Positions 2,263 to 6,439 of a stretch of DNA of 7,414 bases are shown here, in pieces. Position 1 is the stretch's first letter, and every line of letters begins with the position of its first letter. A program made the position numbers and the translations under genes. The notes beneath the pieces were generated by a model. That model was given only the letters and a program-made list of their open reading frames with translations, had not been told where the DNA came from and made no database searches. Source of the DNA: Sedimentisphaerales bacterium (GTDB taxonomy: Bacteria; Planctomycetota; Phycisphaerae; Sedimentisphaerales; SM23-30); the NCBI GenBank assembly GCA_030636065.1, contig DAOVXR010000081.1, forward strand, positions 1 through 7,414. The letters run 5' to 3'.

Positions 2263-2333
2263 ATATTTATCAAGTGTGTCCATCGGGTACAATTCTTCAG
2301 CCCCATGCTGTACGTCGTCGGTACGGTCGTTGG

Positions 2334-2362
2334 ATGGTATCACAACCGCTCGGCAGGGTCAA
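2334..2362 (-). promoter_or_regulatory. Predicted purA promoter (sigma70 type)
   Basis: Read on the minus strand: -35 box TTGACC (2362-2357, 5 of 6 consensus), a 17-base spacer ending in TGA (an extended -10 element), then -10 box TACCAT (2339-2334, 4 of 6). Transcription would start near 2327, giving a leader of about 75 nt before the ATG at 2252. I saw no better candidate between purA and darT on this strand. Confidence 0.55.
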
Positions 2363-2552
2363 AACATAATTTGTTCACCCAACAGCCCCGAAATCAGAGG
2401 CCCACACAGCGAAAAATATCAACCCGGGTTGTATAAACGCGGGTTTTTAGCCGTTTTTTAGACTTTTTGACGGTATTGTCGAGTATAGAGCATTATCTGC
2501 AAAACAGTTGTGTAACGGCATATCGGGAAATTTAACCGGGATTGGTGTGTCC

Positions 2553-2582
2553 TTGACAAGTCTGGTAGGATGGTGTTACCCT
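2553..2582 (+). promoter_or_regulatory. Possible upstream darT promoter (weak -10)
   Basis: A perfect -35 hexamer TTGACA at 2553-2558 is followed after 18 bases by TACCCT (2577-2582), preceded by TGT, which resembles an extended -10 but matches only 3 of 6 -10 positions. If used, the transcript would begin near 2589 and include the anti-Shine-Dalgarno-like sequence at 2614-2621. The strong downstream promoter makes this one optional. Confidence 0.25.
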
Positions 2583-2608
2583 GACTTATTGTGCCGCACA
2601 GAAATAAT

Positions 2609-2636
2609 TTGCCAATCACCTCCACTCTCATATAAT
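2609..2636 (+). promoter_or_regulatory. Predicted darTG promoter
   Basis: TTGCCA (2609-2614, 5 of 6 of the -35 consensus), a 16-base spacer, then a perfect TATAAT (2631-2636). Transcription would start near 2643, about 39 nt before the darT ATG at 2682. This also rules against the upstream in-frame starts at 2508 and 2637. The spacer holds ATCACCTCC, the same sequence in inverted orientation as the ribosome binding site downstream. Confidence 0.65.
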
Positions 2637-2673
2637 ATGCCTTGGTATGCGATCTCTATATTATCTTGTCAAA

Positions 2674-2680
2674 AGGTGAT
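2674..2680 (+). promoter_or_regulatory. darT ribosome binding site
   Basis: AGGTGAT, complementary to the ATCACCT part of the 16S 3' tail, lies immediately before TATG. The same AGGTGATTATG string recurs at the darG start (3404-3414). Both sites place a GTG two codons before the ATG in frame; the ATG is preferred because the GTG sits inside the ribosome site. Confidence 0.65.
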
Positions 2681-2681
2681 T

Positions 2682-3386
2682 ATGGCTGAGATGCCCAAAA
2701 ACCCAAAGATTTACCATATTACACATATTGATAATCTTGACAGCATTTTACGCGATGAAGTGTTGTGGTCGGATGCAAAACGATCGGAGCTTGGCCTGGA
2801 ATGTGAAATAGTAGGTATGTCTGAAATCAAGAGGAGAAGACTGGAAGAACTTGAGGTCAAGTGTCATAGTGGCACTATGGTAGGCGAATATGCTCCATTC
2901 TATTTTTGTCCTCGCTCTATAATGCTTTATATTTTGTACATGGGAAATCATTTCTATTTTTGTCCTCGCTCTATAATGCTTTATATTTTGTACATGGGAA
3001 ATCATTCGGGTATTGATTATCGTGAAGGCCAAGAACCAATTATTCATTTGCAGGCTGATTTGAAAGTTGCTGTCGAATGGGCAAATGATAATAGTATTCG
3101 CTGGGCTTTTTCAGATATAAATGCAGGTTCGTTTCCAGCTCAGTTTTACAATAATCTTGCCCTGCTTAATAAAGTAGTAAAATGGCCAGCTATAGAGGCT
3201 GTCTCTTGGCGTGAAGCAGCTATCCGAGAATATAAGCAGGCAGAATTTCTGATTTATGAATCTTTCCCCTGGGAACTTGTGGAAAAAATCGGCGTTTGTA
3301 ATCGTCGTATTGAAAACCAGGTGACTGAAAAACTTGGAAATAGAGTTTCGCCTGCAGTGAGTATTGAAAGAGATTGGTACTATTAA
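2682..3386 (+). CDS. darT: DarT-like toxin: ssDNA thymidine ADP-ribosyltransferase (DUF4433), with internal duplication
   Basis: DarT enzymes use NAD+ to attach ADP-ribose to thymidine in single-stranded DNA, blocking replication; DarTG pairs act as toxin-antitoxin and anti-phage modules. Seen here (234 aa): YHITHIDNLDSIL (11-23), the NAD-site start; the basic IKRRRLEELEV stretch (49-59) that should hold the conserved Arg; GEYAPFYFCPRSIMLY (68-83); EPIIHL (118-123); and KQAEFLIYESFPWELV (185-200), where Glu188 matches the catalytic glutamate. Residues 73-90 and 91-108 are identical (FYFCPRSIMLYILYMGNH), encoded by a perfect 54-bp tandem repeat. Without the extra copy the protein would be 216 aa, near normal DarT length. 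The insert falls in the catalytic fold, so activity may be lost or altered. The promoter and ribosome site fix the ATG at 2682. darG follows after 25 bp. Codon use is AT-rich compared with purA and uppS. Confidence 0.9.
   Translation: MAEMPKNPKIYHITHIDNLDSILRDEVLWSDAKRSELGLECEIVGMSEIKRRRLEELEVKCHSGTMVGEYAPFYFCPRSIMLYILYMGNHFYFCPRSIMLYILYMGNHSGIDYREGQEPIIHLQADLKVAVEWANDNSIRWAFSDINAGSFPAQFYNNLALLNKVVKWPAIEAVSWREAAIREYKQAEFLIYESFPWELVEKIGVCNRRIENQVTEKLGNRVSPAVSIERDWYY
2898..3006 (+). repeat. Perfect 54-bp tandem duplication inside darT
   Basis: Copy 1 is 2898-2951 and copy 2 is 2952-3005; the first base of the next period (3006) also matches, giving 55 matching bases at period 54. The copies are identical and in frame, each encoding FYFCPRSIMLYILYMGNH. 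The left junction reads GEYAP-FYF and the right junction MGNH-SGIDYREG, as a normal DarT would, so one copy is an addition. Lack of any divergence points to a recent event or an assembly artefact. Confidence 0.97.
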
Positions 3387-3403
3387 ATAGTCATTAGGCT
3401 AAG

Positions 3404-3410
3404 AGGTGAT
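3404..3410 (+). promoter_or_regulatory. darG ribosome binding site
   Basis: AGGTGAT followed by TATG, with AAG in front. It is identical in sequence and spacing to the darT site, consistent with both genes being translated from one mRNA with similar initiation. It sets the start at ATG 3412 rather than the in-frame GTG at 3406. Confidence 0.65.
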
Positions 3411-3411
3411 T

Positions 3412-4449
3412 ATGTTGGAATTAACCAGAGGAGACATACTCAAGGCCGATGCCGAAGCCTTGGTCAACACCGTTAATTGTGTTGGTGTGATGGGTAGAGG
3501 AATTGCTTTGCAATTCCGCAAGGCTTTTCCTGAAAACTTCAAAGCATACAAATCAGCTTGCGATAAGAAAAAACTTCGTCCGGGAACGATGCTTGTTTAT
3601 GATCTGAATCGTTTTCAAAATCCAAGGTATATAGTCAACTTTCCAACTAAAAGACACTGGAAAGGCAAAAGTAAGATCGAAGACATAGAATCCGGATTAG
3701 AAGCTCTTGTGAAAGAGGTAACTAAGTGTAATATTCGATCCATTGCAATTCCTCCGTTAGGGTGTGGTCTGGGCGGTTTAAGTTGGAATCAAGTCAAACC
3801 AATGATTCAAAAAGTCTTTGACGCCTTGCCGGATGTGCATGTGTTTTTATATGAGCCTGCCGGAGCTCCTGTAGCCGAAGAGATGGTTAAAGAAAAGAAA
3901 GTGCCCAATATGACTGTAGGGCGAGCGGCATTACTGGGCTTAATGAATCGTTATTTAAAAGCAGTGATGGACCCATTTGTGAGTTTGCTTGAAATACACA
4001 AACTTATGTATTTTATGCAGGAAGCGGGGGAAAATCTTAGATTGAATTACACCAAGGCAGTTTATGGCCCGTATGCTAAAAATTTACGACATGTTCTTAA
4101 CCTTATTGAAGGGCATTTCATCAGTGGTTTCGCGGATGCGGAAGATAGGCCGGATGCGCAAATAGAATTAATTCCGGAGGCCGCTAATAAAGCCGATCGT
4201 TATTTGGGAAATCATTGCACAACTCGTGAACGATTCGATCGGGTTGTGGACTTAATTAGTGGTTTTGAAACCCCATTCGGAATGGAGTTATTGTCAACAG
4301 TTCATTGGGTAGCCACCAGGGAGGATGCCAAAACAGCAGAGGATGTGATTGAGAAAACTTATGCGTGGAACGAGCGGAAACGAATGTTTCAAGAAGAGCA
4401 CATTCGCATTGCCTGGAAAATACTCGAGAAGAAGGAATGGCTGCGGTAG
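3412..4449 (+). CDS. darG: DarG-like antitoxin: macrodomain DNA ADP-ribosylglycohydrolase with C-terminal toxin-binding domain
   Basis: DarG reverses DarT by removing ADP-ribose from DNA thymidine with its N-terminal macrodomain; its C-terminal region binds and neutralises DarT directly. Seen here (345 aa): macrodomain residues 1 to about 155, with the strand-loop VNTVNCVGVMGRGIALQF (18-35), the FPTKRHWKGKS segment (77-87) and the ligand-binding loop IPPLGCGLGGLSW (113-125). Lys80 in FPTK sits at the number reported as catalytic in Thermus DarG. After a charged linker (about 155-170) comes the second domain, with LEIHKLMYFMQEAGE (193-207) and YTKAVYGPYAKNLRHVL (213-229), typical of DarG C-termini. 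No frameshift or missing motif is visible, so the antitoxin looks functional. It is co-directional with darT, 25 bp downstream, with an identical ribosome site. No clear terminator follows. Confidence 0.93.
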   Translation: MLELTRGDILKADAEALVNTVNCVGVMGRGIALQFRKAFPENFKAYKSACDKKKLRPGTMLVYDLNRFQNPRYIVNFPTKRHWKGKSKIEDIESGLEALVKEVTKCNIRSIAIPPLGCGLGGLSWNQVKPMIQKVFDALPDVHVFLYEPAGAPVAEEMVKEKKVPNMTVGRAALLGLMNRYLKAVMDPFVSLLEIHKLMYFMQEAGENLRLNYTKAVYGPYAKNLRHVLNLIEGHFISGFADAEDRPDAQIELIPEAANKADRYLGNHCTTRERFDRVVDLISGFETPFGMELLSTVHWVATREDAKTAEDVIEKTYAWNERKRMFQEEHIRIAWKILEKKEWLR

Positions 4450-4480
4450 TACGTTTTTTCGCAACCGTAAGGAAGCCAAA

Positions 4481-4687
4481 ATGATGAAGACACGAAGAGA
4501 TTTTTTGAAGGCGGCAGGTATTTCAGCGGTGGGGCTGGCCTGTTATGGTTCGAACGCTATATCAAAAAGCAACAACAAGCCCAATATTATTTATATCATG
4601 CTCGATGAGCTTGGATATTTTGAACTTTCGTGTATGGGGCATGTCCTTGATCCCTCAAAAGGGTTTAAGGGACATAAGAAAGATTAA
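4481..4687 (+). pseudogene. Truncated sulfatase: Tat signal plus start of the arylsulfatase domain
   Basis: A 68-codon remnant. It begins MMKTRRDFLKAAGISAVGLA, a twin-arginine export signal (RRDFLK at 5-10) with a short hydrophobic stretch. Next comes KPNIIYIMLDELGYFELS (33-50), the first strand and metal-binding Asp of the sulfatase/alkaline phosphatase fold. Homology ends near His54 (about base 4642) and the frame closes 14 codons later in unrelated sequence. Family members are usually 450-550 aa and carry a C-x-P-S-R formylglycine motif; none occurs in this or the other frames nearby, so this is a deletion rather than a frameshift. AAGGA at 4469-4473, seven bases before the ATG, shows that the 5' end is preserved. 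It begins 31 bp after darG. An exported short peptide is conceivable but unlikely to be active. Confidence 0.8.
4641..4675. repeat. Long imperfect hairpin at the sulfatase breakpoint
   Basis: Arms 4641-4655 and 4660-4675 pair over 14 positions (one of them G-U), with one bulged base and one T-T mismatch, around a 4-base CAAA loop. It begins almost exactly where the sulfatase homology ends. No T-run follows, so it is not a clear terminator. It could be the end of a small mobile or palindromic element, or the footprint of the rearrangement that removed the rest of the gene. Confidence 0.5.
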
Positions 4688-4837
4688 GCCAATCTGCATT
4701 GTCGAAGATAATATAAGAGTACCTCTGGGCCTTCGGCGGAGCGGAAAGGTGGCATCTATCGCGAGCGATCTCAAATGGCGGGCATGGCCCGCCCATACTC
4801 AAAGACCACGTGAACGGTTACAGGGAATTTAAACTTA
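4688..4837. other. Scarred region between the sulfatase remnant and the FAD dehydrogenase
   Basis: No intact gene. One plus-strand frame is open for 42 codons from 4717 to a TAG at 4843-4845 that overlaps the TTG start of the next gene; its end, HVNGYREFKLID, looks protein-like but I cannot assign a family. A palindromic GC-rich hairpin lies at 4775-4796. AGGGA at 4822-4826 is the only candidate ribosome site for the next gene. The stretch may be a decayed gene 3' end or a dispersed repeat. Confidence 0.4.
4775..4796. repeat. GC-rich hairpin (REP-like)
   Basis: GGCGGGC (4777-4783) pairs perfectly with GCCCGCC (4787-4793) around an ATG triloop; the stem extends by two A-T pairs past one bulged base. 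The shorter palindrome ATCGC-GA-GCGAT lies just before it at 4758-4769. Such compact GC stems are typical of dispersed intergenic palindromes; only one copy is in this window. No T-run follows. Confidence 0.45.
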
Positions 4838-6439
4838 TTGATTAGAATCAGAGACATAACATTACCATTCGATCATAAAGAAGAAGCCCTGGCCGGTAGT
4901 ATTCCGGCACGTCTCGGTATTCCTGATAGCCGAATCCTCACCTTTACCATAGTCCACAAGTCCATAGACGCAAGGCGTAAAAATCGTATTGTGGCTGTTT
5001 ATACGATAGACGTGGAAATAGAAAACGAGTCTGAACTGCTTTCCGAATTTTCGAAGGACATTCGGATTTCCGCTGCGCCCTGTATGAATTATCAGCTACC
5101 AACGGTTGGCAATATACACGGTCCGAGTCCTGTTATTGTTGGAAGTGGCCCCTGTGGCCTCTTTGTTGCCTTGATCCTTGCTCAACTGGGCTTTAAGCCT
5201 GTACTGATAGAAAGAGGAAAGGAAGTCAGTTCGAGAATAAAGGACGTCCGGAACTTTTGGCATAAGGGACAGCTTGACCCGGAATCTAATGTGCAGTTCG
5301 GTGAAGGCGGAGCAGGTACTTTTTCCGACGGGAAACTTACCACCCGGATAAAGGATAAATATAACCGTTCAGGAAAAGTTCTTGAAGAATTCGTAAGGGC
5401 CGGAGCACCGGAAGAAATACTCTATCAGGCCAGGCCTCATATCGGCACAGACAATCTCGTTAAGATTGTAAAGAATCTTCGCAATACGATTATCTCGTCA
5501 GGTGGACAGGTTCGTTTTGAGACAAAACTGACAGGTATTAAAATAAAAGACGGCAGAGTTGTCGGCGCAATTGTTGACGACTCTGAAACTATCGAGACAG
5601 GTACCATAGTGCTTGCTCTGGGACACAGCGCGAGAGACACATTCGAGATGCTGTATCGACTGGACGTCCCTATGGAGGCAAAGCCGTTTTCAATAGGTGT
5701 TCGTATCGAGCATCCCCAGAGTTTGATAGACAAGACTCAGTACGGCAGATTCGCATCGCATCGACTTCTTGGCCCGGCTGAATATAAGCTGGTGTGTCAC
5801 TGCGGGAATGGTCGCTCGGCATATACTTTTTGTATGTGTCCCGGCGGAGAGGTGATCGCTTCTTCATCCGAATCAGGCGGCATAGTAACAAACGGTATGA
5901 GCTGTTATTCTCGAAATCATTCTAACGCAAACAGCGCCTTGTTAGTAGGTGTTGCCCCACGGGATTTCGGAGGCACAAGCCCATTGGCAGGCATTGAGTT
6001 CCAACGAAAATGGGAGCGAAAAGCCTTCGAGACCGGAGGCAATAACTACTTTGCGCCTGTCCAGCTTGTCGGTGATTTCTGCTCCGGCCGGTCTTCGAGT
6101 TCACTGGGAGAGGTTTGCCCGTCATATACTCCGGGAATCACACCGTGCAACCTTGCGGAATGCCTGCCTGAATTTGTCGTTGAAACCCTCCGTCTGGCGA
6201 TCCCACAGATGGACAAAAAACTCACAGGCTTCGCGAAAAACGATGCGGTTATGACCGCGGTAGAATCGAGAAGTTCTTCACCGATAAGGATTGTCAGGGA
6301 TGAGACTTTGCAGAGCACCGCTGTTAAAGGGCTATACCCTGCCGGTGAAGGCGCAGGCTACGCCGGTGGAATAATCTCTACAGCCGTCGATGGAATCAAA
6401 ATAGCTGAAGCCATAAGTAGCAAAACATATTTCACTTGA
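4838..6439 (+). CDS. FAD-dependent dehydrogenase, COG2509 type (uncharacterised NAD(P)/FAD-dependent oxidoreductase)
   Basis: A 533-aa cytosolic flavoprotein of a widespread family without an assigned substrate. An N-terminal domain (about 1-90, starting with RIRDITLPFDH) precedes the Rossmann FAD site VIVGSGPCGLFVALILAQLG (99-118), with acidic ERG at 125-127 closing the dinucleotide fold. Family motifs follow: FGEGGAGTFSDGKLTTR (154-170), IVLALGHSARDTFEML (257-272), FCMCPGGEVIASSSE (331-345) and the C-terminal FAD-binding LYPAGEGAGYAGGIISTAVDG (499-519). Length and motifs are complete. There is no ATG near the expected N-terminus; TTG at 4838 matches the family start, with a rather distant AGGGA at 4822-4826. 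The TTG overlaps the stop of an upstream 42-codon open frame, hinting at former translational coupling. The gene ends with two adjacent stops (TGATAG). The next gene starts 83 bp on in the same direction. Confidence 0.87.
   Translation: MIRIRDITLPFDHKEEALAGSIPARLGIPDSRILTFTIVHKSIDARRKNRIVAVYTIDVEIENESELLSEFSKDIRISAAPCMNYQLPTVGNIHGPSPVIVGSGPCGLFVALILAQLGFKPVLIERGKEVSSRIKDVRNFWHKGQLDPESNVQFGEGGAGTFSDGKLTTRIKDKYNRSGKVLEEFVRAGAPEEILYQARPHIGTDNLVKIVKNLRNTIISSGGQVRFETKLTGIKIKDGRVVGAIVDDSETIETGTIVLALGHSARDTFEMLYRLDVPMEAKPFSIGVRIEHPQSLIDKTQYGRFASHRLLGPAEYKLVCHCGNGRSAYTFCMCPGGEVIASSSESGGIVTNGMSCYSRNHSNANSALLVGVAPRDFGGTSPLAGIEFQRKWERKAFETGGNNYFAPVQLVGDFCSGRSSSSLGEVCPSYTPGITPCNLAECLPEFVVETLRLAIPQMDKKLTGFAKNDAVMTAVESRSSSPIRIVRDETLQSTAVKGLYPAGEGAGYAGGIISTAVDGIKIAEAISSKTYFT

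Follow-up and report, generated by a model that had tools for sequence, protein, structure and literature searches.

The window analysed here, a stretch of 7,414 nucleotides (nt) of contig DAOVXR010000081.1 from a Sedimentisphaerales bacterium (assembly GCA_030636065.1), contains a toxin-antitoxin gene pair, darT and darG, and the toxin gene carries a 54-nt segment twice in tandem. The two copies (Table 1) are 100% identical in DNA sequence and lie in frame inside darT, whose reading frame is open throughout, so that the original prediction was right about the duplication, its place and its reading. The next base, a T at 3006, lengthens the exact match to 55 at a spacing of 54. The peptide present twice in the protein is FYFCPRSIMLYILYMGNH. 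An exact tandem match of 54 nt is no chance resemblance, and a scan of the whole window for periods of 20 to 250 nt found no further exact tandem duplication. We also considered whether the pentamer CATTC at the left border points to slippage; this candidate was dropped because it is one base out of register and because 307 of the 6875 comparison pairs in the window (4.5%) share a 5-mer just as loosely.

Identity of the toxin and position of the doubled segment

The product of the gene had been called a DarT, and three family models agree on this. It scored 229.6 bits with NCBIfam NF048013 (cut-off 150) and 205.9 bits with Pfam PF14487 (cut-off 22.5), and it also matched the DarT model of PADLOC. 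Each model matched the protein in two stretches, as expected from an insertion relative to the models, the best stretch being residues 91-234. A single FYFCPRSxMLY segment is expected of DarT2, while the window DarT has two; this is an allele-level departure and no ground for excluding the protein from the DarT family.

Active-site residues were mapped with a phmmer alignment to the DarT of Thermus sp. 2.9 (7omv, in which chain numbering is one above protein numbering). Thermus Arg51 and Glu160, described as catalytic in the accessible part of the source (PMC9967889), correspond to R53 and E188 of the window DarT, both invariant in a 121-row alignment, and the NAD-binding His13, Thr15 and Asn19 correspond to H12, T14 and N18, which are nearly invariant. 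Thermus His119 aligns with N147. Tyr71 has two counterparts, Y74 (copy 1) and Y92 (copy 2), and so has Met78 (M81 and M99). According to the same part of that source, Tyr71 holds and polarises NAD+ and Met78 stabilises the oxocarbenium ion (PMC9967889). Since it carries the counterparts of both residues, the doubled segment is, by this alignment, part of the active site itself and not just adjacent to it, which bears out, and even extends, the placement originally proposed.

The gene directly downstream encodes the antitoxin DarG, as indicated by its score with NF048014 (473.7 bits, cut-off 250) and by matches to PADLOC DarG and Pfam Macro. It carries K80 and W83; in the part of the literature source available, DarG Lys80 is catalytic and Trp83 stacks on the base (PMC9967889). 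From its sequence, the window DarG looks complete.

Table 1. Coordinates of the features in the window
Feature	Position	Strand	Remarks
uppS	108-875	minus	
purA	969-2306	minus	
sigma-70-like promoter match TTGCCA-16-TATAAT	2609-2636	plus	upstream of darT; 11/12 consensus positions, consensus match only
darT (DarT2-type toxin gene, duplication included)	2682-3386	plus	ATG 2682 to stop ending 3386, 234 amino acids
CATTC	2896-2900, again 3003-3007	plus	left border; possible short homology, one base off the 54-nt register
copy 1 of the 54-nt unit	2898-2951	plus	residues 73-90
copy 2 of the 54-nt unit	2952-3005	plus	residues 91-108
darG (antitoxin; macrodomain + C-terminal domain)	3412-4449	plus	345 amino acids, apparently intact, directly downstream of darT
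twin-arginine signal + ~45 residues, then stop	4481-4687		shortly after darG; may be a truncated gene
FAD-dependent protein gene	4838-6439	plus	
open reading frame (ORF) of 192 amino acids	6697-7275	minus	window end; may not be a gene

The ATG of darT is preceded by a sequence resembling a ribosome-binding site (AAAGGTG). Sigma-70-like sites such as the one upstream of the gene numbered 12 within 2300-4900, versus a mean of 5.9 after shuffling. The G+C content is 39% in darT and 43% in darG, versus 50-52% in purA and uppS, which fits a horizontal acquisition of the pair. In the short reading frame after darG, the ~45 residues presumably resemble the start of a sulfatase, no family having been matched beyond the twin-arginine signal. 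For the ORF at the window end, neither Pfam nor NCBIfam gave a match within the limits applied.

Copy number in relatives

We inspected 201 related proteins (P0003-P0203), namely the 120 listed of 7918 matches and additional ones among the 120 listed from a search with the duplicated region. The protein database was clustered at 90%, members behind a representative being invisible, and the window DarT itself was absent among the representatives. The FYFCPRSxMLY motif was found once in 187 of the 201 relatives and had no strict match in the other 14, each of which has one substituted copy; a second copy was found in none of them. No internal repeat of at least 6 residues was found in any of the 201, and two of them contained a 5-residue repeat. 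All 120 relatives listed in the 121-row alignment have 18 residues where the window DarT has 36, and 167 of the 201 are 212-218 amino acids long. This agrees with the original prediction, in which the length without one copy, 216 residues, fits the family. The search limited to residues 66-112 yielded 1382 matches from 3418 candidates, 120 of them listed; the best, at 49 bits, extended over 53% of the region, and seven listed rows covered 83-91% at 60-65% identity, all of these being within the 201 relatives. A two-copy protein should score far above 49 bits, which argues that there is none among the 1382 matches.

A DarT match was found in 18 of 392 Planctomycetota genomes. In 19 DarT loci, the strict motif was present once in 11, absent in 8 and present twice in none (L001 and L004 are one gene; the count excludes L003, L020 and the second pieces, L022-L026). 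The closest named relatives among the matches listed were from Planctomycetota, i.e. the MohnsGC08 metagenome-assembled genome (L001) and Sedimentisphaerales and Phycisphaerales records. A scan of genome contigs with P0001 gave 3 relatives, and a genus search gave a match in one of 5 genomes, that of L001. In viral contigs, the 24-base pattern of the duplication junction had no exact match, and none of the 10 stretches that fitted a pattern in a protein search encodes a DarT relative. A search of plasmid DNA gave 12 records, every match being in the darG region, and a search of phage proteins gave one record, from Thermus phage phiMa (36% identity).

A one-copy counterpart of the window DarT exists in public data. 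P0003, a protein of 231 residues (upstream start) with 3 member sequences, from an ENA contig of 1147 bases, has one copy of the segment and matches the window DarT without mismatch both over residues 1-90 and over residues 91-234. Another ENA protein, P0204, equals the window DarG at 344 of 345 residues, the sole difference being at residue 115 (3754-3756), which is Pro in the window and Ser in P0204. Together, these two proteins suggest that nearly the same organism is present in public data with one copy of the segment.

In the closest genome (L001, 5670-8503), darT is intact with one copy, and darG is split by ~1.77 kb. The split gene comprises a macrodomain half of 167 amino acids, an ORF of 274 amino acids that matched nothing in Pfam or PADLOC, and an ORF of 382 amino acids, in which residues 191-374 match residues 152-328 of PADLOC DarG (the C-terminal part), the N-terminal part being without family match.

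Effect and origin of the duplication

The AlphaFold2 model of the two-copy protein kept the DarT fold, with most of one copy forming a low-confidence loop between the strand carrying the Tyr and the helix carrying the Met. The predicted local distance difference test (pLDDT) value was below 50 for 13 residues (80-92), and ~18 extra residues lie between the two catalytic positions. The best structural match to this model in Foldseek was Thermus DarT, which, with the DarG partner, is the basis for the DarT2 label; Foldseek and VIA matches outside the DarT family were weak and were not interpreted. The place of the extra loop in the model suggests that activity is lost or reduced, and the two-copy DarT probably works poorly or not at all as an ADP-ribosyltransferase, the activity that in DarT2 modifies thymidine in single-stranded DNA. 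The earlier suggestion that an insertion of 18 residues could harm the toxin is plausible in view of this predicted loop. We consider it very improbable that the two-copy protein has kept its activity, perhaps with a changed DNA preference, and is retained for that. Such an activity would be compatible with the in-frame duplication, with the fold of the model, which retains a strand with a Tyr and a helix with a Met, and with R53 and E188, which are present at the positions of Thermus Arg51 and Glu160. It is harder to reconcile with the separation of the two catalytic positions by ~18 residues, 13 of them with a pLDDT below 50, and with the finding that none of the 120 aligned relatives has such an insertion.

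We favour, with a modest degree of confidence, a sporadic and recent 54-nt duplication within darT over an artefact. An ordinary darTG module of the planctomycete type would have gained it recently in one lineage, through slippage during replication or a comparable local event, and the strand-turn-helix element in which Thermus Tyr71 and Met78 have their counterparts would have been doubled. The resulting protein would probably keep the DarT fold, with the strand from copy 1 and the helix from copy 2, and ~18 extra residues would bulge as a loop between them at the NAD+ site; the impaired DarT would be tolerated with DarG intact. We infer the presence of the duplication in cells, its origin and its age. 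To see how often such events are met, we counted exact tandem duplications with a period of 40-250 nt in 140 Planctomycetota stretches (2,064,935 bases) and found two. Their lengths, 57 and 123 nt, are divisible by three, and the shorter one starts 27 bases from a contig end. This rate of ~1/Mb gives a chance below 1% for one window of 7.4 kb, but a scan of many windows is bound to meet some. With periods of 20-250 nt, the first 100 stretches (1,489,299 bases) gave 16 rows, some of which overlap within a single array; one row was marked as a simple repeat. A heaping of lengths at k-1 as a mark of artefacts was tried on this set and given up, two duplications in 2.06 Mb being too few to judge. 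Several points weigh against a genuine recent duplication: no second two-copy record was found among the relatives inspected; the borders share 1 base of strict homology, which says little for slippage; the in-frame position would be a 1-in-3 coincidence if the event was random; a length close to 54 nt is what an assembly error with k = 55 would give; and some of the exact duplications counted for comparison may be artefacts.

The most substantial alternative, which we regard as possible but clearly less probable, is that the source has one copy and that pieces overlapping by ~54-55 bases were joined with the overlap kept, or that a read was chimeric. A k of 55 is a common assembler setting, and the spacing of 54 and the exact repeat of 55 equal k-1 and k at that value. 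The window may, in addition, stem from a draft or metagenome record. P0003, identical on both flanks of the junction, also speaks for an artefact, although it is compatible with a recent duplication as well. It is no clean proof of a single copy, since assembly from short reads can reduce a genuine 55-base repeat to one copy, and its strain, if shared with P0204, is not quite that of the window, as P0204 differs from the window DarG by one residue. A de Bruijn assembler, moreover, should make no such junction unless it is in the reads or scaffolding fails; the window has no second join of this kind, and the periods of the two comparison duplications, 57 and 123, do not show a k-1 heap (n = 2).

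It had also been proposed that the duplication is a reversible switch, in which two copies silence or retune DarT and the slipped-strand loss of one restores it. The duplication is indeed exact, in frame and at the active site, a near-identical one-copy form exists (P0003), and such a mechanism is known elsewhere, from what the accessible part of PMC4022640 reports on pneumococcal capsule genes. On the other side, no mixed population was shown, none of the 201 inspected relatives has two copies and no match from the region search exceeded 49 bits, members inside 90% clusters being invisible, and with 1 base of strict border homology nothing seen predisposes the site. The selection for silencing invoked in the original prediction is not supported either: the neighbouring DarG looks complete, with its catalytic and base-stacking residues, and the toxin would presumably need no silencing. 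An evolved switch of this kind appears very unlikely, as does a DarT reversibly disabled or retuned by doubling that coexists with the one-copy form, the defence module being bet-hedged by slippage. The comparison with homologues, which had been suggested as a check, contradicted the reading of the 18-residue insertion as a normal variant of the family: the 201 relatives listed all lack a second copy, and the window copies are identical in DNA sequence, which leaves this reading a negligible probability.

Comparison with known systems

The closest described system is the DarT of Thermus sp. 2.9 (7omv, 7omw and 7omy in the PDB). The window DarT resembles it in its NAD-site and catalytic residues, which align, and in its predicted fold; the family models are above cut-off, and darG lies directly downstream. 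It differs in having the Tyr71-Met78 segment twice, which was unseen in the relatives inspected. The duplication hints at a part of the DarT active site that might accept an insertion with the predicted fold kept. As it stands, the finding is of little importance: the DarTG is ordinary, and its duplication is either sporadic or spurious.

A false tandem duplication from a contig overlap is a kind of assembly error. The window repeat resembles it in being exact and about k long, with an otherwise identical one-copy form known, and differs in that the window contains no other exact duplication. Reversible tandem duplications in pneumococcal capsule genes have reportedly been described by Waite et al. 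in 2001 and 2003. In the accessible part of PMC4022640, spontaneous duplications in an open frame lead to phase variation in several such genes (type 3 locus, cap8E and tts). In a limited literature search we met no toxin-antitoxin defence module switched by an intragenic duplication, which is no claim that such a case has never been published. The window darT differs from the capsule genes in that no recurrence was found (201 relatives) and no mixed population or switching was shown; it shares with them a short exact tandem duplication in an open frame, the undoubled form of which is known. If both forms occurred in one population, darTG would be a toxin-antitoxin defence module switched, like the capsule genes, by duplication within a gene.
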